From the NCBI GenBank assembly GCA_026390575.1, contig JAPLFR010000009.1, positions 310,001 through 374,000 on the forward strand: 64,000 nucleotides of DNA, in the 5' to 3' direction. The position numbers and the translations under genes are program-made. Every line of letters begins with the position of its first letter. Position 1 is the first letter of the stretch. Positions 10,920 to 44,686 of the stretch are shown one piece after another. The stretch is from Ignavibacteriales bacterium (lineage in GTDB: Bacteria > Bacteroidota > Ignavibacteria > UBA10030). The notes under the pieces were generated by a model. That model was not told the origin of the DNA. It worked only from the letters and a program-made list of their open reading frames with translations, and ran no database searches.

Positions 10920-10993
10920 GGGCCCTTAGCTCAGTTGGTTAGAGCAGCAGACTCATAATCTGCGGGTCGCTGGTTCGAGCCCAGCAGGGCCCA
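10920..10993 (+). tRNA. tRNA with anticodon CAU (Met, or Ile2)
   Basis: A complete cloverleaf: acceptor GGGCCCT pairs with AGGGCCC, D-arm GCTC/GAGC, anticodon stem GCAGA/TCTGC with loop CTCATAA, and T-arm GCTGG-TTCGAGC-CCAGC. CCA is not encoded. Anticodon CAU means elongator or initiator methionine, or isoleucine-2 after lysidine modification; base-level rules were not applied to choose. The 3' 45 bases (10950-10994) are repeated at 43743-43787, so this tRNA is the attachment site of the mobile element and stays intact after insertion. Confidence 0.93.
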
Positions 10994-10994
10994 C
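10950..10994 (+). repeat. attL: 45-bp direct repeat in tRNA 3' half
   Basis: The 45 bases from the anticodon stem to just past the tRNA end (gactcataatct...cagggcccac) are identical to 43743-43787. A tyrosine integrase gene ends 54 bases to the right. This is the usual arrangement of a tRNA-targeted integrative element, with the left copy inside the complete tRNA. Confidence 0.9.
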
Positions 10995-11047: not shown

Positions 11048-12019
11048 TTAGGGGAGAAGCTGAAGGTATCGTTGCGTGGTGCTAATCTGGGAGTGGCCGA
11101 GCAAAATCATTATCTCATAGATAGGTTTGCCCTGCTTTGATAATAGGGAAGCGTATCTATGGCGAAAGCTATGCCAACCCCAAACCTTGGCAGTCGGGTC
11201 TTTCTTCTTAAGCTCCCTTAATTTCTTATCAAGAAACTTTGGAAGCTCTGACCAAGTTCCGAATACCAATTCGTCTGCTCGGTATTTGCTTTTAAGGGAT
11301 ACCGGCTTAGGAAGTTTGCGGGGGGTCAAATCGGAGTTCTTGCTTTTCCTTGTGTAAAGAACTATGTAGTCTTGGGAGATGTCTTTACCCTTGAATCTTA
11401 ACGCCTCACCGATACGACAGCCGGTTTCCTTTGCGAAGTCCATTAAAAGTTTCTGCTGTTTATTACAGACACTTCTGACCTTCTCAATCTCGGTGTCGGA
11501 AGGGATATACTTCAACCGCTTATTTACGGAAAACATCCTAATTCCTTTACAAGGATTTGAGATATTTAGGTTAAAGTTATCAATGCCGAAATAGAAAAGA
11601 GATTTGAAAGCCCTTATCATTGTGTTGACGGCGTAGTTCCCAAAACCTTTGGCGTGCTGATCGTTGGCATAAGCCAAAAGGAAGTTATTGATATCCGACT
11701 TCGTTATCTGACTTATGGGGACATTTCCTAAAGCATCTAAGAGCAATTTGAAGTGTGCCTTATTGCCAAGATAGTATTTGTGGCTTTTCTTTATCTTAAG
11801 CTCGTCCAACCTCGCATTTATCAAGTCCAATAAGAGAACATCATTTTTTAAGTTGGGGTTTCTCCGTTGTTCGTCTATCTCTTTGTATCTGTCAGACTCG
11901 GCAAGTTTCGCCTCTCCTTTGGAGTGATAGATACAAGGGCTAAAATAGACTTTCCCGTTATAAGAAAATTTGAAGAACCAATGGATACCCTTGCTGAGTT
12001 TTCTACTATACGCTGGCAT
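11048..12019 (-). CDS. Tyrosine recombinase (phage-type integrase)
   Basis: A 323-residue site-specific recombinase. The catalytic set is visible: R202 (GCRIGEAL), H283 and R286 (HSFRHR), H309 (LLGHSQ) and the nucleophile Y318 (TTQRYL). The N-terminal half carries an arm-binding and core-binding SAM-like region (about 65-160). It should integrate and excise the element at the tRNA. The gene ends 54 bases from attL and reads towards it, the common orientation for tRNA-targeting integrases. It starts at ATG 12019, with only a weak ribosome site. The divergent excisionase-like gene begins 122 bases away, so the shared gap likely controls integration. Confidence 0.95.
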   Translation of the reverse strand: MPAYSRKLSKGIHWFFKFSYNGKVYFSPCIYHSKGEAKLAESDRYKEIDEQRRNPNLKNDVLLLDLINARLDELKIKKSHKYYLGNKAHFKLLLDALGNVPISQITKSDINNFLLAYANDQHAKGFGNYAVNTMIRAFKSLFYFGIDNFNLNISNPCKGIRMFSVNKRLKYIPSDTEIEKVRSVCNKQQKLLMDFAKETGCRIGEALRFKGKDISQDYIVLYTRKSKNSDLTPRKLPKPVSLKSKYRADELVFGTWSELPKFLDKKLRELKKKDPTAKVWGWHSFRHRYASLLSKQGKPIYEIMILLGHSQISTTQRYLQLLP

Positions 12020-13152: not shown

Positions 13153-13398
13153 TCACTTCGGGTGTGGAATAATATCTAGAAGGTAGTACGTATCACCTTT
13201 GATCGTAAAGTAGAATCGCCAATTAAGAGTAACCCGGGCTTGCCAAATGTCTTGTGCTTCATTGTATTTCTTCGCTCTTAAGGAAGGGTGACGGATATCC
13301 GCCAGCAAAAGAGCAACACGTCGGTCAAACGCACTTTGAATTGCGTCAGGTGCATTGTCGTAACTCTTACGAAACCGTTCGGTGTAGAAGATCTGCAT
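13153..13398 (-). CDS. RelE/ParE-family toxin
   Basis: An 81-residue protein of the RelE/ParE/HigB-like toxin fold: N-terminal IFYTERFRKSYDNAPD, a helical region, then the sheet region IWQARVTLNWRFYFTIKGDTYYLLDI and a short histidine-containing end. RelE-type members cut mRNA on ribosomes, ParE-type poison gyrase; the sequence does not settle which. The start overlaps the stop of the upstream antitoxin gene by one base (TAATG). As part of an addiction module it would stabilise the mobile element. Confidence 0.82.
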   Translation of the reverse strand: MQIFYTERFRKSYDNAPDAIQSAFDRRVALLLADIRHPSLRAKKYNEAQDIWQARVTLNWRFYFTIKGDTYYLLDIIPHPK

Positions 13399-13673
13399 TA
13401 GCTTTTTTTGGATTTCCGCGATGAAGCGCGAAGGGAATGAACCGTTTCCTTTGCACTCTGAAACGGACCATAAACACGGCCCTGCTTGACATCCTCAAGA
13501 GCCTCAGAAAGTCGTCCCTCAAGATGCCTGTCAACGAGGGTTTTCGGAGTGAGCACGAGCTTTCCTTTATAAAGTTCCACCTCTAAATAATCACCAGTCT
13601 GGAGATGAAGAGCCTCGTGGATTTTCTTAGGGATGGCTACTTGGCGGCTCGCGCCAACTTTAACGGCCTGCAT
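13398..13673 (-). CDS. AbrB/MazE-type antitoxin
   Basis: A 91-residue protein with an N-terminal SpoVT/AbrB DNA-binding domain: VKVGASRQVAIPKKIHEALHL, then GDYLEVELYKGKLVLTPK. The C-terminal tail (about 50-91) is charged and probably neutralises the toxin. The frame opens at 13712, but the internal ATG at 13673 has aaggagaa at the right distance and begins the AbrB fold at once, so I choose it. It is translationally coupled to the toxin gene. AbrB-type antitoxins usually repress their own promoter; none is clear just upstream. Confidence 0.82.
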   Translation of the reverse strand: MQAVKVGASRQVAIPKKIHEALHLQTGDYLEVELYKGKLVLTPKTLVDRHLEGRLSEALEDVKQGRVYGPFQSAKETVHSLRASSRKSKKS

Positions 13674-14021
13674 GATGAGTTCTCCTTGTGTTTGTAGTTT
13701 CATATAATACAATTATATGAAAACAATATAGCGAGAGAAAAGCAGACTGTCAACCATCAAAGCATCTCAAAACCAATCTCAAAACCAATAATAAACATCT
13801 GAAATAACAACATAGTGTAGCAGCGACTGCTGCTTTCTACGCGAATATTGTCACAAATTGACTCTAATAATGTAATTTTGTAATTTCCATATGTAAATAT
13901 TCGGAAGCATACATTTTACCTTAAAACACAAATAGAGATTAACGTATGAGATAGATTCTCGATAAAATAATTTGATGCAGATTTCTGCATTGTTCTATCC
14001 TGAAAAACTGGCAATTTTATA

Positions 14022-23064: not shown

Positions 23065-23536
23065 ATAATTGCATAAACACCGAACAATAAGAGGTTTGTG
23101 AAAAACGGCAAGGACGGTACAGGTAGAAAAAGTTTTCTTCATTATATTATCTTTTGGCGTGTGGCGATAGTAAAGTGCAAATAATATCGCCACTTCGCGA
23201 AGCCCTGACCGTTTTCTGCAATCAGTTGAAGTATTTTGAGTCGATGAGATATAAAAGCGACAGAGGGACATTTTCAAAGCCCCTCTTCTTTGGCGCAGGT
23301 AATTTGAAAAGGGCTTTGTGGCTTGCTTGCCCGTCGTCTTTCGCGTTTTGTGCCTGCTTGTCGCAGGGCACGGCGTCCGCCATTTTTGGGCGGATTGGCG
23401 GAGCCGCCATCCTTTCTGTTGTGAGAGCCGGAGACATAGAAATAATGTCCCCGCTTTGTGGAGTAACAAATTTATCTAATGATCTCCCATGCATATTAGG
23501 TCGGTAATCCCGCCTGTGAATGAAGAGGATAGGAAA
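23065..23536. other. Gene-free stretch with short palindromes
   Basis: No convincing gene. Open frames on both strands here are GC-rich shadows without ribosome sites. GC-rich inverted segments occur near 23380-23412 (gtccgcc / ggcgga and ggcggagccgcc). It separates the zinc-finger lipoprotein from the protease and may carry the protease promoter. Confidence 0.4.
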
Positions 23537-26500
23537 ATGTTTAATCACCTGAAATACAGTGTTATTCTTTTATTATTTAGTCTTATATCATCGGTTTATT
23601 CGCAACAGATGAATAATGAAATCAATCCGGACTATGTGAAATGGCTAGAACAAAAAGGAAGCGGGAACAGCGAACAATTTACCATTGATGGACATCCATT
23701 AGGGTACATTCCACCTCCTTATAAAATACATACAGAATTACCTGAATATTTAAAAAAACAATTAGCAAAAAAAGAGTCACTTCCTGCAAGTTTTGACTTG
23801 CGCAGTACCGGAGGATTAACCCCTGTAAAAGACCAAGGTACTTGTGGAGCGTGTTGGACATTTGCTACTATGGGTGCGATTGAATCTCGCTGGAAAGTTA
23901 ATGGCAAAGGTACATACGACCTTTCGGAAGATAATTTGAATACATGTCATTCTCCTTTTTTAGTGGCTCCTTGTGAAGGGGGGAATTCTTCATATTCGTT
24001 AGCCTATTTATCAAGAGGCTCAGGACCAAAATCAGAAACAGATGATCCCTATAATGATAAACATACTACTGTCGATTGTCCCTCTGGTCTCAATCCTCAA
24101 GGTATAGTTACCTCAGGTTGGTTTATTCCCAAATCTGATCCAATACTAATAAAGAGCCTTATCCAACAATATGGTGCATTATCTACAAATATGTATTATA
24201 CAGAATCATCGTACAATGCAAGTAATTATACTTATTATTATTCTGGAACTGCGGGTAACAATCATTCTGTGACACTCGTTGGATGGGATGATAATAAAGT
24301 TACGGCAGGAGGAACCGGTGCTTGGATAATTAAAAATAGTTGGGGAACAAGCTGGGGTGAAAACGGTTATTTCTATATTGCATATCAAGATACAAAAGTC
24401 AATAACGAAGTGACGTTATTTAAAGATTATATCGATTATAATCCAAATCAAACAATTTCTACATATTCGGAATCTGGATCGGTAGAGAGTGTAGGATATG
24501 GCACATCACAAGCATATGCCTTAGTGAAATTCATTGCAACGGGAAATGTCCAATTGATGAAAATTGGAACATATGTAACTTATCCAGGATCTGTTGTCAG
24601 TATGGAAGTCTATGATAATTTTGATGGTAGCAGTTCATTGACTGGATTATTGGGATCAATTTCGAGTCAGACTTGCACCTATACAGGATATTACGCCTTT
24701 GATTTTTCTTCTCCAATAAACATTTCAAATGGGAATAATTATTATGTAAAAATTAGTTATCAAACACCAGGTTGGAATTATCCAATTCCCATTGAAGCGT
24801 ATATTGCTGGTTATAATAATCCTACCTTCGAAACAGGAAAATGTTGGATAAGTTCAGGAGGATCAACTTGGTCTTCGTTGGGTAATAATGAGGATCTATG
24901 TGCTTATGCTTATACAAGTACGAACATTGCCCCTAATGCACCCACAGTAACAACGACAACTGCTACAAACATAACCAGTACAAGTGCATCATCTGGAGGA
25001 AATGTAACCTCTGACGGAGGAGCTACTATAACAGTCCGGGGAGTATGTTGGAGTACAGGTAGTAATCCCACATTAGGTAATAGTCATACATCGGATGGAA
25101 CAGGCACCGGAACATTTACAAGCAGTATAACCGGATTGAGTCCTGGAATCCTGTATCATTACAGGGCATATGCAACCAACTCTGCGGGGACCAGCTACGG
25201 AAGCGAGCTCACATTTACAACAACTTCTTCAACACCAACAATAACAATATCGCCAACTTCATTACCATATTTTGGAAATGTCGTAGTAGGCCAGAATTCA
25301 TCATCTCAATCCTACACAGTTTCGGGTAGTAATCTGACAGCAAATATTGCGATTCAAGCACCAACTGGATTTCAAGTATCGTTAAACTCAATATCTGGAT
25401 TTGCAAGTTCACTAAACCTAACACAATCTGGTAGTACGGTTCCTAGCACAACAATTTATGCAAAATTCAGTCCGATGAGTGCCGGATTTCAATCGGGGAA
25501 TATTTCACATACAAGCTCAGGTGCGACGACTAAAAATATTTCAATTAGTGGAACTGGTACGGCGGTTTCGACATCAGCAGTTTTATCCTTCACTCCAACA
25601 TCCGGTCCCATTGGAACAACAGTTACCATCACCGGCTCAAACTTTAGTACAACTCCAGCAAATAATATTGTATACTTTGGCGCAGTAAGTGCACAGGTAT
25701 CTTCTGCCACCCAAACGCAGCTTGTTGTCGCTGTTCCAACCGGAGCGACGTACCAGCCAATTTCTGTAACAGTAAATGGATTAACGGCATACGCAAATGC
25801 TCCCTTTATTGTAACTTTTCCAAGTTCACAAATTATAGATACATCATCCTTTGCCTCAAAATTAGATTTCACAACAGGATCGGCTCCCATTGGCGGTGTG
25901 ATATGTGATGTGGATGGAGACGGCAAACCAGACCTCGTTGTTACAAACGCGAACAGCAATACTGTTTCGGTCTTCAGGAACACAAGCGCTTCCGGAGTTA
26001 TGACGGCAAGCTCCTTTGCTCCAAAGGTTGACTTCACGACGGGATCGCATCCATACGGTGTTGCTATCGGTGATGTGGATGGAGACGGTAAACCAGACCT
26101 CGTTGTTATAAACGCGAACAGCAACACTGTTTCGGTCTTCAGGAACACAAGCTCTTCCGGTTCCATTACAACAAGCTCCTTTGCTCCAAAGGTTGACTTC
26201 ACGACGGGGCCGTCTCCCGTTAGTGTTACTATCTGTGATGTGGATGGAGATGGCAAACCAGACCTCGTTGTTACAAACGCGAGCAGCAATACTGTTTCGA
26301 TCTTCAGGAACACAAGCTCTTCCGGAGTTATGATGGCAAGCTCCTTTGCTCTAAAGGTTGACTTCACGACGGGATCGTATCCATACGGTGTTGCTATCGA
26401 TGATGTGGATAGAGACGGCAAACCAGATCTCGTTGTTACAAACGCGAGCAGCAATACTGTTTCGGTCTTCAGGAACACAAGCTCTTCCGGTTCCATTACT

Positions 26501-28414
26501 GCAAGTTCCTTTGCATCTAAGGTTGACTTCACAACGGGAACGACTCCCGTTGGTGTTGCTATCTGTGATGCGGATGGAGACGGCAAACCTGACCTCGTTG
26601 TTACAAACGCGAACAGCAATACTGTTTCGGTCTTCAGGAACACAAGCTCTTCCGGAGTTATGACGGCAAGCTCCTTTGCTCTAAAGGTTGATTTCACGAC
26701 GGGATTGTATCCATGCGGTGTTGCTATCGGTGATGTGGATGGAGACAGCAAACCTGACCTCGTTGTTACAAACGCGAACAGCAATACTGTTTCGGTCTTC
26801 AGGAACAGAAGCGATTCCGGAGTTATGACGGCAAGCTCCTTTGCTCCAAAAGTTGACTTCACGACGGGATCGTATCCATACGGTGTTGCTATCGGTGATA
26901 TGGATGGAGATGGTAAACCAGACTTCGTTGTTACAAACGCGAACAGCAATACTGTTTCGGTATTGCGGAACACGATCCTTGCCATCAACACATACACATT
27001 AGCGGTAACTGCAGTTAACGGAACAGTAACCAAGAATCCTGATCAGGTGAATTATAATTACGGATCGACAATTACATTAACAGCGACACCAAATCAAGGT
27101 TATACATTTACTGGTTGGAGCGGAGATACAAGTGGTTCGACTAATCCGCTAACATTAACAATGAATGGTAATAAAAAAATTACAGCAAACTTTAAAACAA
27201 CCAATGACGGAATCAGTTGGGTAAAACAATCAAGCGGTACAAGTGATTGGCTAAGCTCTGTTGATTTTATCGATGAGAATACAGGGTGGGTTGTGGGACA
27301 AACCGGCGACATTACCAATGTCGGTAGCATAATCCTAAAAACAACTGATGGAGGAACCGCTTGGATAAGTCAATCAAGCGGGGTAAGCAGTTGGTTATTC
27401 TCAGTTGATTTTATAGACCAGAGTACTGGTTGGACTGTAGGTCAATCTGGCACAATTCTTAAGACTACAAATGGAGGAACTAATTGGATAAGCCAATCAA
27501 GTGGTGTTAGTGACTGGTTACGTTCAGTCCATTTTATTGACCAGAATATCGGTTGGGTAGTCGGTGATGGTAGTACAATTCTTAAAACAACCAACGGCGG
27601 AATTAATTGGGTTAGACAATCAAGTGGCATCAGTGATTGGTTAAGTTCGGTTGACTTTGTTGATCAAAATGCCGGGTGGGCTGTGGGACAGTCCGGCGCT
27701 ATCATCAAAACAACCGACGGGGGAAACAGTTGGATAAGTCAATTAAGCGGAACAAGTGGTAATCTACAATCCGTTGATTTTATTGATCAGAATACTGGTT
27801 GGATAGTAGGAGTATTTTTAAATTCTTCTGGTGTTGTACTTGGACCCATTCTTAAGACGACCGACGGAGGAGCTAATTGGATAAATCAAACTAACGGAAA
27901 TGATAAATTTTTGTATTCAGTTCATTTTATTGATCAGAATACTGGTTGGGCTGTGGGTTCTTTAGGTCTGATACTCAAAACAACCAATGGTGGTAATAAT
28001 TGGATAAGTCAAACAAGCGAGATAAATACAGCGTTAAACTCTGTTTATTTTGTAAATAATACAGGCTGGGCTGTTGGGGAAGCTGGCACAATCCTTAAGA
28101 CAACCAACGGCGGTGTTACTTTTGTAAAAGATGCTAAGACAGAAATACCAGATCAATTTGTTTTATACCAGAACTATCCGAACCCGTTCAATCCAAATAC
28201 AAGGATAGAATATGGAATATCGAAAGCATCTCATATAACAATTAAAATATTTGATATACTGGGAAGAGAAGTCGCAACACTTATCAACGAAGTGAAATCG
28301 GCAGGAATATATACCACAACATTTAATGCGGCAAAAATGTTGAGCGGGATTTATTTTTATCGATTGCAGGCTGGAAATTTTGTTGAAACGAAAAAACTTG
28401 TTTTGCTGAAATAG
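23537..28414 (+). CDS. Secreted papain-like protease, multi-domain, with T9SS sorting domain
   Basis: A 1625-residue secreted protein. After a signal peptide (1-22) comes a C1A papain-type peptidase with Q100, nucleophile C106 (GTCGACWTFA), H243 (NHSVTLVGWD) and N267 (IKNSWGTSWGENGY), then a lectin-like beta domain. Downstream are fibronectin-like and choice-of-anchor-like modules, an IPT/TIG domain (PTSGPIGTTVTITG), seven VCBS/FG-GAP repeats (VDGDGKPDLVVTNA), a repeat ending in WSGDTSG, about seven YCF48/BNR-type repeats (WAVGQSGAIIKTTDGG) and the T9SS tail (YQNYPNPFNPNTRIEY ... KKLVLLK). It should degrade protein outside the cell or on its surface. The start at 23537 has aggataggaaa upstream; the frame extends to 23489 without support. 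Confidence 0.88.
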   Translation: MFNHLKYSVILLLFSLISSVYSQQMNNEINPDYVKWLEQKGSGNSEQFTIDGHPLGYIPPPYKIHTELPEYLKKQLAKKESLPASFDLRSTGGLTPVKDQGTCGACWTFATMGAIESRWKVNGKGTYDLSEDNLNTCHSPFLVAPCEGGNSSYSLAYLSRGSGPKSETDDPYNDKHTTVDCPSGLNPQGIVTSGWFIPKSDPILIKSLIQQYGALSTNMYYTESSYNASNYTYYYSGTAGNNHSVTLVGWDDNKVTAGGTGAWIIKNSWGTSWGENGYFYIAYQDTKVNNEVTLFKDYIDYNPNQTISTYSESGSVESVGYGTSQAYALVKFIATGNVQLMKIGTYVTYPGSVVSMEVYDNFDGSSSLTGLLGSISSQTCTYTGYYAFDFSSPINISNGNNYYVKISYQTPGWNYPIPIEAYIAGYNNPTFETGKCWISSGGSTWSSLGNNEDLCAYAYTSTNIAPNAPTVTTTTATNITSTSASSGGNVTSDGGATITVRGVCWSTGSNPTLGNSHTSDGTGTGTFTSSITGLSPGILYHYRAYATNSAGTSYGSELTFTTTSSTPTITISPTSLPYFGNVVVGQNSSSQSYTVSGSNLTANIAIQAPTGFQVSLNSISGFASSLNLTQSGSTVPSTTIYAKFSPMSAGFQSGNISHTSSGATTKNISISGTGTAVSTSAVLSFTPTSGPIGTTVTITGSNFSTTPANNIVYFGAVSAQVSSATQTQLVVAVPTGATYQPISVTVNGLTAYANAPFIVTFPSSQIIDTSSFASKLDFTTGSAPIGGVICDVDGDGKPDLVVTNANSNTVSVFRNTSASGVMTASSFAPKVDFTTGSHPYGVAIGDVDGDGKPDLVVINANSNTVSVFRNTSSSGSITTSSFAPKVDFTTGPSPVSVTICDVDGDGKPDLVVTNASSNTVSIFRNTSSSGVMMASSFALKVDFTTGSYPYGVAIDDVDRDGKPDLVVTNASSNTVSVFRNTSSSGSITASSFASKVDFTTGTTPVGVAICDADGDGKPDLVVTNANSNTVSVFRNTSSSGVMTASSFALKVDFTTGLYPCGVAIGDVDGDSKPDLVVTNANSNTVSVFRNRSDSGVMTASSFAPKVDFTTGSYPYGVAIGDMDGDGKPDFVVTNANSNTVSVLRNTILAINTYTLAVTAVNGTVTKNPDQVNYNYGSTITLTATPNQGYTFTGWSGDTSGSTNPLTLTMNGNKKITANFKTTNDGISWVKQSSGTSDWLSSVDFIDENTGWVVGQTGDITNVGSIILKTTDGGTAWISQSSGVSSWLFSVDFIDQSTGWTVGQSGTILKTTNGGTNWISQSSGVSDWLRSVHFIDQNIGWVVGDGSTILKTTNGGINWVRQSSGISDWLSSVDFVDQNAGWAVGQSGAIIKTTDGGNSWISQLSGTSGNLQSVDFIDQNTGWIVGVFLNSSGVVLGPILKTTDGGANWINQTNGNDKFLYSVHFIDQNTGWAVGSLGLILKTTNGGNNWISQTSEINTALNSVYFVNNTGWAVGEAGTILKTTNGGVTFVKDAKTEIPDQFVLYQNYPNPFNPNTRIEYGISKASHITIKIFDILGREVATLINEVKSAGIYTTTFNAAKMLSGIYFYRLQAGNFVETKKLVLLK
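25850..27000 (+). repeat. Seven 165-bp repeats coding FG-GAP/VCBS units
   Basis: The segment gatgtggatggagac and its flanks recur with exact 165-base spacing (25907, 26072, 26237, 26402, 26567, 26732, 26897). The units are nearly identical at DNA level and keep the frame, so they arose by recent tandem duplication or are kept alike by gene conversion. Each encodes a 55-residue calcium-binding-type propeller blade (DVDGDGKPDLVV). Long antisense open frames here are a by-product of the repeat. Confidence 0.85.
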
Positions 28415-35789: not shown

Positions 35790-36857
35790 TTATTTCTTTT
35801 CAAATAAGAAAATATATTCATGTTTAAAGATGTAGAAACCATCAACCAATGCACGATATCGCCAGAGTTCTTTCTGATTCCTTTTTCCTTTTGTCTCATC
35901 GAAATTCTTGATGATAACGGACTTGAGAGAATATCCGCGTTTTAGAACTTCTTGCATTGTATAGAAACCAAGAGGAATCCAATTTCCTCCGGAATATTTA
36001 TCACCAATAACCACTGCAAAGTAACGACCTTTGTCCAACACGGGATATGTAGCGTCAATGATTTTTCCAAAGAGACATAGGAACTCGTCTATTGTTTTTG
36101 CATTAGACAAATCTTTATTGTTTTCACTGAATTTTATTATATCCCAGTATGGCGGGTGCATTATCAGAAGTTGGACACTTTTAATATTTCGCTGCTTTAA
36201 TTCCGCCTTAAAATCTATACTTGAACTATCGCCAACTATTATTTCTGTGCGAGCGGAGAACAAATCATCTTCTTGGTCAATTGCCTTTGCCGCAGATTGC
36301 GCAACTTTCCGTAAAAGTTCTACTCCAACACCATTCCTTCCCAATCGTTTACTTTCTATCAAAGTTGTTCCACTACCCAAAAAAGCATCGAGAACCCATT
36401 CACCATTTTTAGTATAACGTCTTAATAATTGGTTGGGAATTTGGGGAATAAAGTTGCCCCAATAACCACCATTGTGTGCACCGGAAATGTCGCGTTTATC
36501 CAGAATCCAAAGGCTGTCGGTAAGAATATCGTCGTACTCTTTCCATCTGTGTAAATTCAGATCATTTATCTTGCTTGTCTTTGACTCAGAGAGCGAACGA
36601 ACCAGTCGTTTGATATAATATTTTGTTCGTTCAATTGTTTTAGTGTCGAGTATCTGGTCAAGCTCGCCAATGAGATATTTTGAGCTAACCATTAAAATAT
36701 CTCCATTGGAACCTATGTTGAAAAATCCCTTTTTATCGATAGGCAGGTTTGCAACATTAGTCTTAAAATCCTCGACTGTAGCACGGATTTGATTAAGATT
36801 CTGCCGCTCAAGCGATTTCGACAATATATTCGTAATCTTCCTTTTGGTTAATTTCAT
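35790..36857 (-). CDS. DNA methyltransferase, N4/N6-type
   Basis: A 355-residue DNA amino-methyltransferase. The AdoMet-binding motif LDAFLGSGTTLIESKRLG and the catalytic motif LLIMHPPYWDII are both present, the latter with histidine in place of the usual aspartate before PPYW. A segment GGYWGNFIPQIPNQLLRRYT precedes motif I, as in many phage and plasmid enzymes. No restriction enzyme is adjacent, so it is probably a solitary methylase that shields the element from host restriction or marks its own DNA. It is followed in the leftward direction by a small regulator gene. Confidence 0.82.
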   Translation of the reverse strand: MKLTKRKITNILSKSLERQNLNQIRATVEDFKTNVANLPIDKKGFFNIGSNGDILMVSSKYLIGELDQILDTKTIERTKYYIKRLVRSLSESKTSKINDLNLHRWKEYDDILTDSLWILDKRDISGAHNGGYWGNFIPQIPNQLLRRYTKNGEWVLDAFLGSGTTLIESKRLGRNGVGVELLRKVAQSAAKAIDQEDDLFSARTEIIVGDSSSIDFKAELKQRNIKSVQLLIMHPPYWDIIKFSENNKDLSNAKTIDEFLCLFGKIIDATYPVLDKGRYFAVVIGDKYSGGNWIPLGFYTMQEVLKRGYSLKSVIIKNFDETKGKRNQKELWRYRALVDGFYIFKHEYIFLFEKK

Positions 36858-39680: not shown

Positions 39681-40478
39681 CTATTCTATAATCTTTACTT
39701 TCGTTCCGCTTGGCATACGCCAAATGGGTTTTGCTATATCGGTAAATTCGGGGAAGGGGATAAAGCGAAAATGCTTGTCGGAAATGTCTTTAATTCCTGA
39801 TAGGAAATATTCAAACTGCTTGTAAAGCAAATTGATAGTTGGTCTATTGAGCGGTTCGGAATATTGAATGGGTCTCATATAAATATCGAAGCGGTGATTA
39901 GCGCAAACAAACAATATTTTAGTCTTGGGAGATAATCCGTTCTTGGTAAATAATCCCTCCTTGATGAATTTATTATATCTTAAAATTTTGTCTCGGCTAA
40001 TCCTTGTGAATTCCTTTTTGCGTTCTATCTCTACAAAGAAAGAATATTCTCGGTGATCGTGAATGTTTTTTGCTTTGATAAATATATCCGGTCTTATGCC
40101 GTTAAAGTCAGCTTTGTAATTAAAATCAAACTCACAATCGGGGAAGTTTCTCAGGAAGGATAAGGCAACATCAAACTTCATTGACTCGTGTTCGGCGTTA
40201 TTCAAAGACTTGGTTATCTTTTGTTTAAAGTCCTCAAGTCGGTCAATAACTTTTGTGCCGCCTCTCGTAACGAAATAAAAATATTGCTGGCGTTTGTTTC
40301 TTGGTCTTATGTCGAAGGGTATCTGTTGGACCCAACCGGCTTTTACGTATTTCTTGATATCCTTATTCACCTGCAACAAAGATCCCTTATAAGACTTGGC
40401 TTCATAAGAGAAAAGGTTGTTGATACTTCCGGCTTGAATTGATAATAATTCGTGGAGGGTATTATGTTGGTGATTCAT
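39681..40478 (-). CDS. Replication-relaxation (Replic_Relax) family protein
   Basis: A 265-residue protein. The N-terminal half has a winged-helix layout (VNKDIKKYVKAGWVQQIPF then FYFVTRGGTKVIDRL). The C-terminal half has the family's PD-(D/E)XK-like core: GIRPDIFIKAK and YSFFVEIERKKEF, followed by RDKILRYNKFI. It is clearer than the second family member at 33154. The family is tied to relaxation and initiation on conjugative plasmids that use TcpA-type coupling proteins. It is followed by the ArdC-like and RadC-like genes on the same strand. Confidence 0.72.
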   Translation of the reverse strand: MNHQHNTLHELLSIQAGSINNLFSYEAKSYKGSLLQVNKDIKKYVKAGWVQQIPFDIRPRNKRQQYFYFVTRGGTKVIDRLEDFKQKITKSLNNAEHESMKFDVALSFLRNFPDCEFDFNYKADFNGIRPDIFIKAKNIHDHREYSFFVEIERKKEFTRISRDKILRYNKFIKEGLFTKNGLSPKTKILFVCANHRFDIYMRPIQYSEPLNRPTINLLYKQFEYFLSGIKDISDKHFRFIPFPEFTDIAKPIWRMPSGTKVKIIE

Positions 40479-40916: not shown

Positions 40917-41198
40917 TTATCGAGATCGGCTTTCTTCCAATTTTGTTTTTTCAGATATATCAGACTCAAGTAATTTCCTTGATTCTATAATGGCATATTT
41001 GATAGCGTCAAGGATAGTAAGCCACTTGTTCATATAGTCGAGAGAACGATTGGCAAAAACATATTCCTTGTATCGGGTAAAGCATCCGCGATTGCTGTTA
41101 ATATCGACTAATGAAATTGTCTTGGCGATATAATCTATTTCGACATTTACTTTTATTTGATTCTGTTCGATGGTGAGCACCTCAAGTCGTTTTATCAT
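40917..41198 (-). CDS. Hypothetical protein, first leftward gene after structured RNA
   Basis: A 93-residue protein (beta strands in the first 50 residues, helical and charged tail). Not recognised. It is preceded by the structured region at 41228-41366 and a consensus promoter at 41479-41507. It may be the first gene of the leftward module. Confidence 0.55.
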   Translation of the reverse strand: MIKRLEVLTIEQNQIKVNVEIDYIAKTISLVDINSNRGCFTRYKEYVFANRSLDYMNKWLTILDAIKYAIIESRKLLESDISEKTKLEESRSR

Positions 41199-41507: not shown

Positions 41508-41715
41508 GACACGTACTTTTATGCAGAAGCTAATGGAAGACATCAAGTATGGTCGCAAAAAATGAATGTCCAGAAGAAATCGATGAGGTTGAGTGATTTA
41601 ATGATTTGAATTGTATAGATCTTTGCTCCTTGTGTTAATGAGAGAGAATGAGTAATATTGTAACACTAGAAACAACGATTTGCTAAAAGATACTGCAAAG
41701 AATGGAGTCTATAGA

Positions 41716-43551
41716 ATGTCTAACATGATCAAAGTCAATAGCAAGTATGAAATTCTTCAAATTATTCGAGATTTTGGCGAACCTCTAGAAATTTTTAGAG
41801 AAGCAATTCAAAATGCATTTGACGAAGATGCGACAAAAGTTGTATGCCATGTTTATGAAAATCAAAAAATAAGCGGAAACGAATTAATAATTGACATATT
41901 CAACAATGGGAAAGGCCTACCTAAGGCAAATATTCCTAATTTTTTTGACTTAGCGAATTCTACAAAGGTCAATAAACAACTGATACCGGACAAGACTAAA
42001 ATTGGATATAAAGGGCATGGCGCCAAGATATTCTTTAATTCTATTAAGGTGATTATTACTTCAAAAGTACTTAATGGTGATTATTATTCGGTAGTCCTAA
42101 ATAATCCTATTGATCAGATCGCGAGTGACAAAGAAGGCATTGAATACTCTGATCCCATATCCCCAGACGATACGAATGTAAAGCTACCCTCTGATTGGAA
42201 TCAAGGCTTTTTTGTGAGAATAATTGGCCATTTGCATTTTCGAACACAACACACAAAATTTAAGCTTAACCACAAACACCTTCGTGATTATTGTATGTGG
42301 TATACAATCCTAGGCACTGTTCGCACATATTTTGATGAAAACATTAAGAATCGTCAATTTGAATTATACTTACGTAGTCTTGATTGTGATGCCTTCTTAA
42401 AAGACTACAACTCGAAGAAAGCAATTGATCCATTGCCTATAATTGAGCAATACGAAAATAGCAATTTTGAAAAAATCTCTATGGGACATTATTTCCCTTC
42501 TGAGCGTTCGACTGATAAGGAAATGAAGAAATACGTTTCTGAAATCGGGAGTAATAAGGCCTATTATGACTATTTTAGCCAAATAATTTACAAGAAGCCA
42601 GTTTCCTGTTCTGACGGAACTACATTTAATTTAATTATTAGTCTTGAAGGGTATGAGACCAAACGTCGCTATGATATTCTCCTAACGGGGCGTGGTAGAG
42701 GCCGAACAGAAATAACTCATGCAGACAGTGATAGATATGGTATTTGGGCGTGCAAAGGTGGCATCCCCGTTGAAAAAGTGGATACTTGGATAGAGGGTGC
42801 AAAAGGTGTATACACTTATTTGCAGGCATTTATTGACTCGGATGCTTTTAGTCTTACAGCAAACAGAGGCTCAATTCACAATTCTGAAATCGAAATAATT
42901 GATCTTATCAAGAAAAAAGTCACAGATATTTTTAATACTGCAGAAATCAAGGGAGCTATCAATCAGCGAATAGAAATAGAAAACATGGAGAAAAAGATTG
43001 AATCAATTGAAGAAGATCGAAAAGCACTTTCTTTGCGACATAAAAACAGCGAATCAAGGAAGAAGATTATTGTCGGAGATCATATTTTTTATGAACCCAA
43101 GAAATTGAGTTCTGGATATTATTCAGAATCTGAAACCCTTATTTTACTCATACAATTGATGCAAGCATTTCCCAATCTATTTACTTTTGATATACGAGAT
43201 TATAATACAACAACAGGAATTGATTTTGTCGTAACGCATCAATCAAACCCCAAGTACATAGAGCTTAAGGGAACTTTTACGAAATCAATTAATCACCCTT
43301 TTCGTTACATTTATAAATTCATTTGTTATGAAGTAATGCTTGATCCCACTGCGATTGTGGAAGATATTGAGCCTATAATCGCTAAATTAAAAATTAATCA
43401 AGGAGACAAATTCGTTTCATTTGATGACAACTACAAAGGAAAAACCTTTCGGAGCTATAATCTCATTCCTGAAAGTGCCTATTTTACAAGTATGGAAATA
43501 GTCGAACTAAAAACAATTTTACAGAATGTTTTAAATGCCCGCTTTGACTAG
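41716..43551 (+). CDS. GHKL ATPase fused to PD-(D/E)XK nuclease
   Basis: A 611-residue protein. The N-terminal GHKL (Hsp90/MutL/MORC-like) ATPase domain has the N-box EAIQNAFDEDA (E29, N33), G1 DIFNNGKGLP (from D60) and G2 IGYKGHGAK (97-104). A coiled coil (about 415-450) links to a C-terminal domain with GIDFVV (D503) and YIELKG (E516, K518), the D...ExK core of restriction-type nucleases. The start at 41716 has ggag eight bases upstream; a TTG at 41680 is possible. It lies alone on the + strand by the right end of the mobile element, the usual slot for cargo. A defence role is inferred from the architecture; the exact family is unknown to me. Confidence 0.75.
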   Translation: MSNMIKVNSKYEILQIIRDFGEPLEIFREAIQNAFDEDATKVVCHVYENQKISGNELIIDIFNNGKGLPKANIPNFFDLANSTKVNKQLIPDKTKIGYKGHGAKIFFNSIKVIITSKVLNGDYYSVVLNNPIDQIASDKEGIEYSDPISPDDTNVKLPSDWNQGFFVRIIGHLHFRTQHTKFKLNHKHLRDYCMWYTILGTVRTYFDENIKNRQFELYLRSLDCDAFLKDYNSKKAIDPLPIIEQYENSNFEKISMGHYFPSERSTDKEMKKYVSEIGSNKAYYDYFSQIIYKKPVSCSDGTTFNLIISLEGYETKRRYDILLTGRGRGRTEITHADSDRYGIWACKGGIPVEKVDTWIEGAKGVYTYLQAFIDSDAFSLTANRGSIHNSEIEIIDLIKKKVTDIFNTAEIKGAINQRIEIENMEKKIESIEEDRKALSLRHKNSESRKKIIVGDHIFYEPKKLSSGYYSESETLILLIQLMQAFPNLFTFDIRDYNTTTGIDFVVTHQSNPKYIELKGTFTKSINHPFRYIYKFICYEVMLDPTAIVEDIEPIIAKLKINQGDKFVSFDDNYKGKTFRSYNLIPESAYFTSMEIVELKTILQNVLNARFD

Positions 43552-43742: not shown

Positions 43743-43787
43743 GACTCATAATCTGCGGGTCGCTGGTTCGAGCCCAGCAGGGCCCAC
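43743..43787 (+). repeat. attR: 45-bp copy of tRNA 3' half
   Basis: Identical to 10950-10994. The sequence to its left (gaagt) differs from the tRNA, so it is only the 3' half and not a second gene. It marks the right end of the element. The bases 43552-43742 between the GHKL gene and attR show no gene. Confidence 0.9.
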
Positions 43788-43796
43788 AGAATAAAA

Positions 43797-43880
43797 GGTC
43801 ACAGGTTCTGCGCCAGAGGCGCATGCTTGTACGCCATCTTTTTGGCGTAAGCCTTCGGCTCAGAGCCCAGCAGGGCCCAC
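43797..43880 (+). repeat. Second, interrupted copy of the tRNA 3' end
   Basis: Ten bases after attR, ggtcacaggttc resembles the tRNA ggtcgctggttc (10 of 12). After about 52 bases containing hairpins (tgcgcc/ggcgca; tacgcca/tggcgta) the exact tRNA end gagcccagcagggcccac resumes at 43863-43880. It looks like an older attachment copy split by a palindromic insertion. The bases 43881-44041 lead into the DUF2807 gene. Confidence 0.55.
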
Positions 43881-44041
43881 AAATTATTTCCATTTATATA
43901 ATTATTTGTACGAAAAGCAGATTGGAAAAAACATTTATTCCCGGTTGAAACCTTTAGATGAAAAGTAAGGTATACTGTTAAGGAGATATGCAGAGGTATC
44001 TGGCAAGACAGTCAAACTTTTCTGAAAGGGAAATACACGTC

Positions 44042-44686
44042 ATGAAAAAACTGCTCATGTTTTCATTGGTAAGTATCTTCGCGCTCAGCTCCTGTCAGTG
44101 GCATAGAATTCACGGGAATGGATCCATTAAAACTGAAACGAGGGACGTTCCGGCTTTTGAAGCTATTACGTGCGATGGCAGTTATGAAATCCAGATTGAT
44201 TGCCAGGCGAAACAGTCATTAACAATTGAAACTGATGAAAATCTGCTGCCGCTTGTAAAAACTGAGGTTCGCGATCATACACTTCGTATTTACACAAAAG
44301 GATTTGTTTTGCCTACCAATAGGATTCGCGTTGTGGCTTCTGTTCCGAATATCAGCGGATTCACATCGAACGGTTCGGCTGACGGCGAAATCAATCACGT
44401 CAACAATAACTCTTTAGAAATTGAAATTAACGGCTCCGGAAAATTACACCTCAACGGAAAGAGCGGTGATGTTCGTATCCATACATCAGGTTCCTCAAAG
44501 ATTGATGCAGCTTCACTCGTTGCAGACGATATTGATGTCCAGATCAATGGGAGCGGTAATATTCAAGTCTACGCGAATAATTCCATCTCTGCCCAAATCA
44601 ATGGATCCGGTACTGTGAAATATAAAGGGGAACCAAAGAGCGTCAATCAACAAATCAATGGTTCGGGGAGGATTATAAAGGAATAA
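44042..44686 (+). CDS. DUF2807 (GIN-domain) putative adhesin lipoprotein
   Basis: A 214-residue lipoprotein: signal MKKLLMFSLVSIFALSSC with the lipobox at Cys18, then a DUF2807/putative auto-transporter adhesin head domain with the typical IEINGSGKLHL, IDVQINGSGNIQV and QINGSGRI repeats of a right-handed beta fold. The family is widespread in Bacteroidota and of unknown binding function on the cell surface. The frame opens at 43988 but the signal peptide starts at 44042. It is the first chromosomal gene after the element. Confidence 0.85.
   Translation: MKKLLMFSLVSIFALSSCQWHRIHGNGSIKTETRDVPAFEAITCDGSYEIQIDCQAKQSLTIETDENLLPLVKTEVRDHTLRIYTKGFVLPTNRIRVVASVPNISGFTSNGSADGEINHVNNNSLEIEINGSGKLHLNGKSGDVRIHTSGSSKIDAASLVADDIDVQINGSGNIQVYANNSISAQINGSGTVKYKGEPKSVNQQINGSGRIIKE

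Follow-up and report, generated by a model that had tools for sequence, protein, structure and literature searches.

A GHKL-S5 ATPase fused to a PD-(D/E)XK-type nuclease domain as candidate defensive cargo of an integrative element, with haloarchaeal relatives that lack the nuclease residues

An integrative element and its solitary last gene

The window (the whole stretch of 64,000 nucleotides that was analysed) contains a 32.8-kb element inserted at a tRNA(CAT) gene, the last gene of which encodes a protein of 611 amino acids with an N-terminal ATPase region and a predicted C-terminal nuclease domain. The features of the locus are:

10920..10994, + strand: tRNA(CAT) gene, the integration site; attL corresponds to 10950-10994
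11048..12019, - strand: tyrosine integrase of the element, beside attL (family assigned by eye and from a cluster of integrase-like genes)
35790..36857, - strand: N6_N4 DNA methyltransferase inside the element (Pfam PF01555, 1.2e-20)
39681..40478, - strand: replication-relaxation-like protein of the element (weak match, E 5.4e-4, below the Pfam cut-off)
41716..43551, + strand: GHKL-S5-PD-(D/E)XK nuclease fusion gene, 611 aa (open reading frame; Pfam HATPase_c_3, 1.7e-6; AlphaFold model)
43743..43787, + strand: attR, an exact 45-bp repeat of the 3' end of the tRNA(CAT) gene

The attL and attR sequences have 45 identical bases of the tRNA(CAT) 3' end in common. In a genome of the same genus (G505, locus L142) the counterpart of the gene at 43988-44686 comes immediately after an identical tRNA. 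This is an unoccupied site, from which we conclude that the GHKL gene arrived with the 32.8-kb insertion. The att repeats and the empty site confirm the mobile element that had been proposed from the sequence alone, and they support the placing of the fusion gene as cargo at its right end. The element probably carries a transfer module. Just past attR, 18 bp of the tRNA 3' end recur for a third time (43863-43880), perhaps as the scar of an earlier integration. Near the integrase end a small gene pair (13153-13712) reads, by eye, as a RelE/ParE-type toxin and an AbrB-like antitoxin, while 23489-28414, unusually large for the cargo of an element, encodes a predicted secreted protein of 1641 amino acids with a papain-family protease-like start (QGTCGACWTFA, by eye). 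A second copy of the N6/N4 methyltransferase of the element, 76% identical, is located elsewhere in the same genome (G000:C16:574833-575882).

The open reading frame 41716-43551 starts with an ATG and extends over 611 codons without stops; upstream of the ATG the frame stays open back to a TTG at 41680. Full-length homologues in many phyla (dozens of genomes) show that it is a real gene rather than a chance frame. Its G+C content is 34%, compared to 39% for the element and 44% for the right flank. Its left-hand neighbour (40917-41198) is encoded on the other strand, and 191 bp to the right comes attR, in line with the earlier claim that the gene stands alone. In the encoded protein only the ATPase is recognised by Pfam (besides HATPase_c_3, HATPase_c with 8.6e-6), and outside the GHKL domain a comparison with the PADLOC defence profiles gave no match.

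Domain structure of the fusion protein

41716..42360, + strand: GHKL ATPase domain, approximately residues 1-215 (N box E29-N33; G1 box N63-N-G65-x-G67; G2 box G97-Y-K99-G100-H101-G102)
42361..43053, + strand: S5/transducer domain and long helix, approximately residues 216-446 (invariant R384 in LTANRGS; VIA-align)
43054..43548, + strand: PD-(D/E)XK-type nuclease domain, approximately residues 447-611 (E471, D503, E516, K518 and H527; invariance and model)

The AlphaFold model of the whole protein, obtained with a 70-row alignment, has a mean pLDDT of 91.4 and a pTM of 0.82. Comparison of residues 1-427 of the model to solved structures by VIA-align gave Hsp90 (8ffv, Z 20.5), MORC3 (5ix2, Z 19.7) and MutL (9n2k, Z 18.4), and the ATPase and transducer region of GyrB was also among the fold matches of residues 1-430, a part of the protein that models as a GHKL and S5 clamp. 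The label "MORC-like" of the sequence-only reading agrees with the MORC3 match, but MORC3 fits no better than Hsp90 or MutL.

Residue conservation was counted in a 70-protein alignment that consists of 65 non-haloarchaeal and 5 haloarchaeal sequences. E29 and the G2-box residues G97, K99, G100, H101 and G102 are kept in all 70 proteins and N33 in 69 of them. R384, in the LTANRGS motif, is likewise found in 70 of 70. Hsp90 has a motif with its catalytic arginine that resembles LTANRGS, and by position and motif R384 probably corresponds to this ATPase arginine finger. All three GHKL boxes had been read as present: the N box (E29/N33), G65 and the G2 box are as described, but the Asp of the G1 box is replaced by Asn63 (codon AAC), so that the box is N63-N-G-K-G and not D-x-G-x-G. 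This position is Asp in 68 of the 70 aligned homologues and Asn exclusively in the fusion protein and its nearest relative, L094, which besides has a Ser at the position of G67. In characterised GHKL proteins the G1-box Asp contacts the adenine, and an Asp-to-Asn exchange at the equivalent position of Hsp90 abolishes ATP binding. With Asn63 in place of the adenine-contacting Asp, normal ATP binding or use by the fusion protein is therefore not assured and its ATP gating may be altered. The assignment of the GHKL fold is based on the model and on the other boxes.

The D503...E516-x-K518 core that had been noted in the C-terminal region is present as described, and E471 completes an E-D-ExK set with these three residues. 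In the model, a helix (471-484) that carries E471 is followed by strands at 492-496, 504-508 and 511-521, hence by alignment and model the domain has the alpha-beta-beta-beta core with E-D-ExK residues of the PD-(D/E)XK nucleases. None of the 65 non-haloarchaeal relatives in the alignment, which come from many phyla, deviates at E471, D503, E516, K518 or H527, and such invariance speaks for an active nuclease. A separate model of the C-terminal domain has a pLDDT of 94.4. Its VIA alignment resulted in 18 rows, nearly all of them PD-(D/E)XK nucleases, the best being EndoMS (5gkj; Z 5.1 over 86 residues, rmsd 2.7), which is below the confidence threshold of the tool; the best rows, all with low Z values, include EndoMS/NucS, AF1548, SfsA, FokI, MspJI, LmuA, DdmD, McrC and NucC. 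Foldseek with the modelled domain returned nothing at E <= 0.001, and no solved structure was found for the nuclease domain by sequence search. Since the structural Z values are low, the PD-(D/E)XK fold rests mainly on the motif. Structure prediction and conservation together support the earlier description of the protein as a fusion between a GHKL ATPase and a nuclease of restriction type, and the family of this nuclease is absent from both Pfam and PADLOC.

Relatives, their neighbourhoods and a haloarchaeal branch

A scan with the single fusion protein found nothing in genomes or viral contigs, as the patterns were too specific. With an alignment-based query instead, and one genome per species, at least 104 relatives were detected, of which 80 loci were kept; no phage record matched. 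The relatives occur in Bacillota, Bacteroidota, Pseudomonadota, Acidobacteriota, Chloroflexota, Spirochaetota, Verrucomicrobiota, archaea and other groups, and in 3 of 395 genomes of the phylum to which the fusion gene itself belongs. L094 is 53% identical to the fusion protein over the full length, and both fall into a small, fully supported clade (100/100) with L095, L090 and L097, the hosts of these four relatives being Bacillota (two families), Bacteroidota and Sumerlaeota. Near-identical or close pairs across phyla (Bacteroidota/Sumerlaeota and Oceanospirillaceae/Chlorobiaceae) indicate recent lateral transfer. One relative resides on a mobilizable Caballeronia plasmid, and 11 loci have tyrosine integrases. 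In genome G330 a C-terminal fragment of the family (L006:548-937, about 57% identical) lies behind a transposase-like frame as a decaying copy of the subfamily of the fusion protein. At L049:2085-3791 a GHKL gene stands between apparent cydA and cydB genes (gaps of 8 and 21 bp), as if inserted in a housekeeping operon; the contig is 4.7 kb long and the arrangement is possibly a chimaera.

The neighbourhood survey of the loci revealed no constant partner gene of the bacterial relatives, many of which adjoin ordinary housekeeping genes. L094 is situated about 0.9 kb past the last gene of a run with DrmA (1.6e-282), DrmB (2e-85) and DrmC (8.6e-101) of DISARM, with a piece of a type III restriction gene before it and a TOTE-type primase gene after it. 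L050 is flanked by a DUF1156 methylase (2.9e-258) on one side and by SoFic with a PLD-helicase (4.4e-216) on the other. In a Pacearchaeota contig (L091:7750-13233) the GHKL-nuclease gene sits within a type II restriction-modification operon, in the order QueC, N6/N4 methylase, GHKL-nuclease, BsaWI-type endonuclease (with a 4-bp overlap) and a second methylase, and the same set of BsaWI-type endonuclease and methylase adjoins the family member of L086, on opposite strands. A pooled scan of 145 flanking genes detected many defence families, including a type I restriction enzyme, GajB, HerA and type II methylases; these hits are pooled over the loci, and the defence neighbours are a qualitative observation for which no enrichment figure is claimed. 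The homologues that adjoin DISARM, restriction-modification and other defence genes support the link to bacterial conflict systems that had been drawn from the GHKL domain. The PADLOC matches "REase_II", "TmtA" and "MzaB" fall within the GHKL domain only, in the members scanned singly, and are no evidence for those systems.

The haloarchaeal homologues (L003, L004 and L100-L107) form a case of their own. All ten are located directly after a gene similar to tRNA-guanine transglycosylase (TGT-like), and nine of the ten loci also have a gene of DUF6884, the family to which DpdC is assigned. Several loci bear a second TGT gene, TGT with DUF5591 like ArcS, downstream or further upstream, and the neighbours in Haladaptatus match DpdJ (8.5e-44), DpdK (3.8e-11), DpdC (5e-6) and DpdA (3e-6). 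E471, E516 and K518 are absent from all five haloarchaeal sequences of the large alignment, and the two plasmid-borne haloarchaeal copies show, by eye, the same loss of nuclease residues. An example of the arrangement is:

L101:8277-13637: haloarchaeal operon with DUF6884 (DpdC-like) gene, TGT-like gene and GHKL protein without nuclease residues

This operon has the appearance of a 7-deazaguanine-based DNA modification system not described before. It was proposed in the literature that a different NTPase can replace DpdB in TGT-bearing systems, and by analogy the haloarchaeal GHKL protein could stand in likewise for DpdB. A survey of archaeal immunity does not mention the haloarchaeal GHKL-TGT arrangement, and under the terms searched neither this survey nor a paper on BREX describes the family. 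It is possible, if somewhat doubtful, that the GHKL-S5 clamp represents a DNA-loading module of general use with a replaceable C-terminal nuclease effector, in which case the haloarchaeal form, its catalytic residues lost, would replace DpdB as the ATPase that assists TGT-like enzymes in writing 7-deazaguanine bases into DNA, and the solo bacterial form would restrict DNA. If so, there would be an undescribed archaeal DNA-modification system, and a restriction family and a modification family would be tied together by one clamp. The nuclease residues were lost in the same clade that gained the linkage to TGT operons, which constitutes a natural experiment on the role of the clamp itself, and the nuclease-dead haloarchaeal branch is a more surprising lead than the gene in the window.

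Proposed function and comparison with known systems

We propose that the fusion protein is, with fair probability, a one-gene ATP-gated DNA restriction enzyme that serves as defensive cargo of the integrative element. Its GHKL-S5 model, the invariant nuclease residues, the position as solitary cargo in a mobile element, the wide horizontal spread, the homologues among defence genes and the precedent of VcSduA (see below) lead to this reading; Asn63, the modest match of the nuclease fold (Z 5.1) and the many housekeeping neighbours were counted against it. The GHKL domains of two subunits would shut around ATP in the manner of Hsp90, MutL and MORC, giving a clamp that spans a DNA-sized cavity. 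Closure would be triggered by a cue on the invading DNA and would place both C-terminal PD-(D/E)XK domains on the duplex, which they would cut by means of K518 and a metal ion coordinated by E471, D503 and E516. We infer the dimer clamp, the cleavage of DNA, a phage or plasmid as target and the control by ATP.

The cargo might serve the element rather than its host, by cutting incoming rival conjugative elements or plasmids, not phages, and so guarding the niche of the resident element. The integrase and the probable transfer module of the element, the relative on the Caballeronia plasmid and the 11 integrase-bearing loci agree with this, but homologues beside chromosomal DISARM and restriction-modification loci fit general anti-phage islands equally well and VcSduA acts on phages (PMC12137116); we regard such competition as unlikely. 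That this copy has a dead ATPase or a changed use of nucleotides (D63N), with a nuclease either free or permanently gated, is suggested by the Asn that it has, together with L094, where 68 of 70 proteins have Asp, and by the additional Ser of L094 at G67. E29, G97-G102 and R384 are however kept in both proteins, whose 53% identity over the full length is not a pattern of decay, and we give this account little credence.

The N6/N4 methyltransferase of the element (35790-36857) is a conceivable protecting partner, the fusion protein being then the restriction half of a restriction-modification pair. Such pairing is brought to mind by the tight operon of methylase, GHKL gene and BsaWI-type endonuclease in L091, by the same set on opposite strands in L086 and by the connection of MORC/paraMORC proteins with restriction-modification made by Iyer et al. 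in 2008 (PMC2292703). Yet in L091 and L086 the methylase is already paired with a BsaWI-type endonuclease of its own, a methylase partner is missing from most homologues, and the methylase of the element lies at a distance of 5 kb and on the opposite strand. Relatives of this methylase are found in 20 of 390 genomes of the phylum, among which only the genome of the window is also listed with the GHKL gene, while the GHKL-positive G291 and G330 are not among the genomes listed with the methylase. Since no other genome of the phylum sample is listed with both genes, the pairing is not supported, and we consider it improbable. A Shedu type I-D protein like VcSduA would have the same domain order and a similar spacing of the key residues (E29...K518, compared to E27...K557 in VcSduA; PMC12137116). 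SduA_C (PF14082) was however detected in none of 65 C-terminal domains at E <= 0.1 and nowhere in the whole genome that carries the fusion gene, and profile-profile comparison (hhalign) of the family nuclease with SduA_C sequences gave a probability of 0.6%. A bona fide GHKL-SduA_C protein, L126, aligns with the family in the GHKL domain only (probability 95.5%). Membership in Shedu is rejected on the basis of Pfam for the 65 members and of the profile-profile comparison, and this identity is the one to which we attach the very least belief.

The alignment, model and phylogeny define a wide family of one-gene ATPase-nucleases that is absent from the defence library used and whose nuclease belongs to a family that Pfam lacks, so that profile scans would miss it; its conserved residues offer a direct mutational test.

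Among known systems, Dpd resembles the haloarchaeal branch through the operons with DpdC-like DUF6884 and DpdA/TGT-like genes and, in Haladaptatus, DpdJ- and DpdK-like genes; the element and all bacterial members differ in lacking these partners (by eye, no TGT-like DpdA gene is among the gene calls of the element), and the haloarchaeal members lack the nuclease residues. MutL, MORC and Hsp90 have in common with the fusion protein the modelled fold of residues 1-430 (Z 18-20), but the fusion protein has a fused nuclease and a G1 Asn, and has no mismatch-repair or chromatin partner.

A tested analogue is VcSduA, the GHKL-Shedu protein of V. cholerae, for which the block of phages, belonging to the Drexlerviridae, was shown in 2025; the E27A and K557A changes abolish it, and in the published model two entwined subunits form a dimer whose middle domain resembles a clamp (PMC12137116). 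VcSduA is encoded by a single gene on a genomic island and its nuclease is DUF4263/SduA_C (PMC12137116). Both proteins are single-gene products of a mobile or genomic island in which a GHKL clamp precedes a PD-(D/E)XK nuclease, but the nuclease of the fusion protein has no detectable relation to SduA_C. By sequence, the fusion protein appears as a sister design to VcSduA and not a Shedu member, the likeness being evidence of how it may work. Viral contigs contained no GHKL-Shedu sequences.

The statement of the sequence-only reading that the fusion could not be placed in a named system can be improved upon, since besides this analogue the architecture is that of paraMORC3, defined by Iyer, Abhiman and Aravind in 2008 as GHKL and S5 followed by a C-terminal restriction-fold nuclease with E-D-ExK (PMC2292703). 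Genes for paraMORC3 are sporadic and laterally mobile, prevail in Proteobacteria and Bacteroidetes, and in a subset are standalone, without conserved neighbours (PMC2292703). The fusion protein has each element of that definition, a likeness at the level of the published architecture, and its solo bacterial relatives have no constant partner, like the standalone paraMORC3 genes. Whereas paraMORC3 was described mainly in Proteobacteria and Bacteroidetes, the present family extends across many phyla. The gene at the right end of the element most likely encodes a paraMORC3-like standalone ATPase-nuclease that acts as a one-gene defence enzyme against phages or plasmids.
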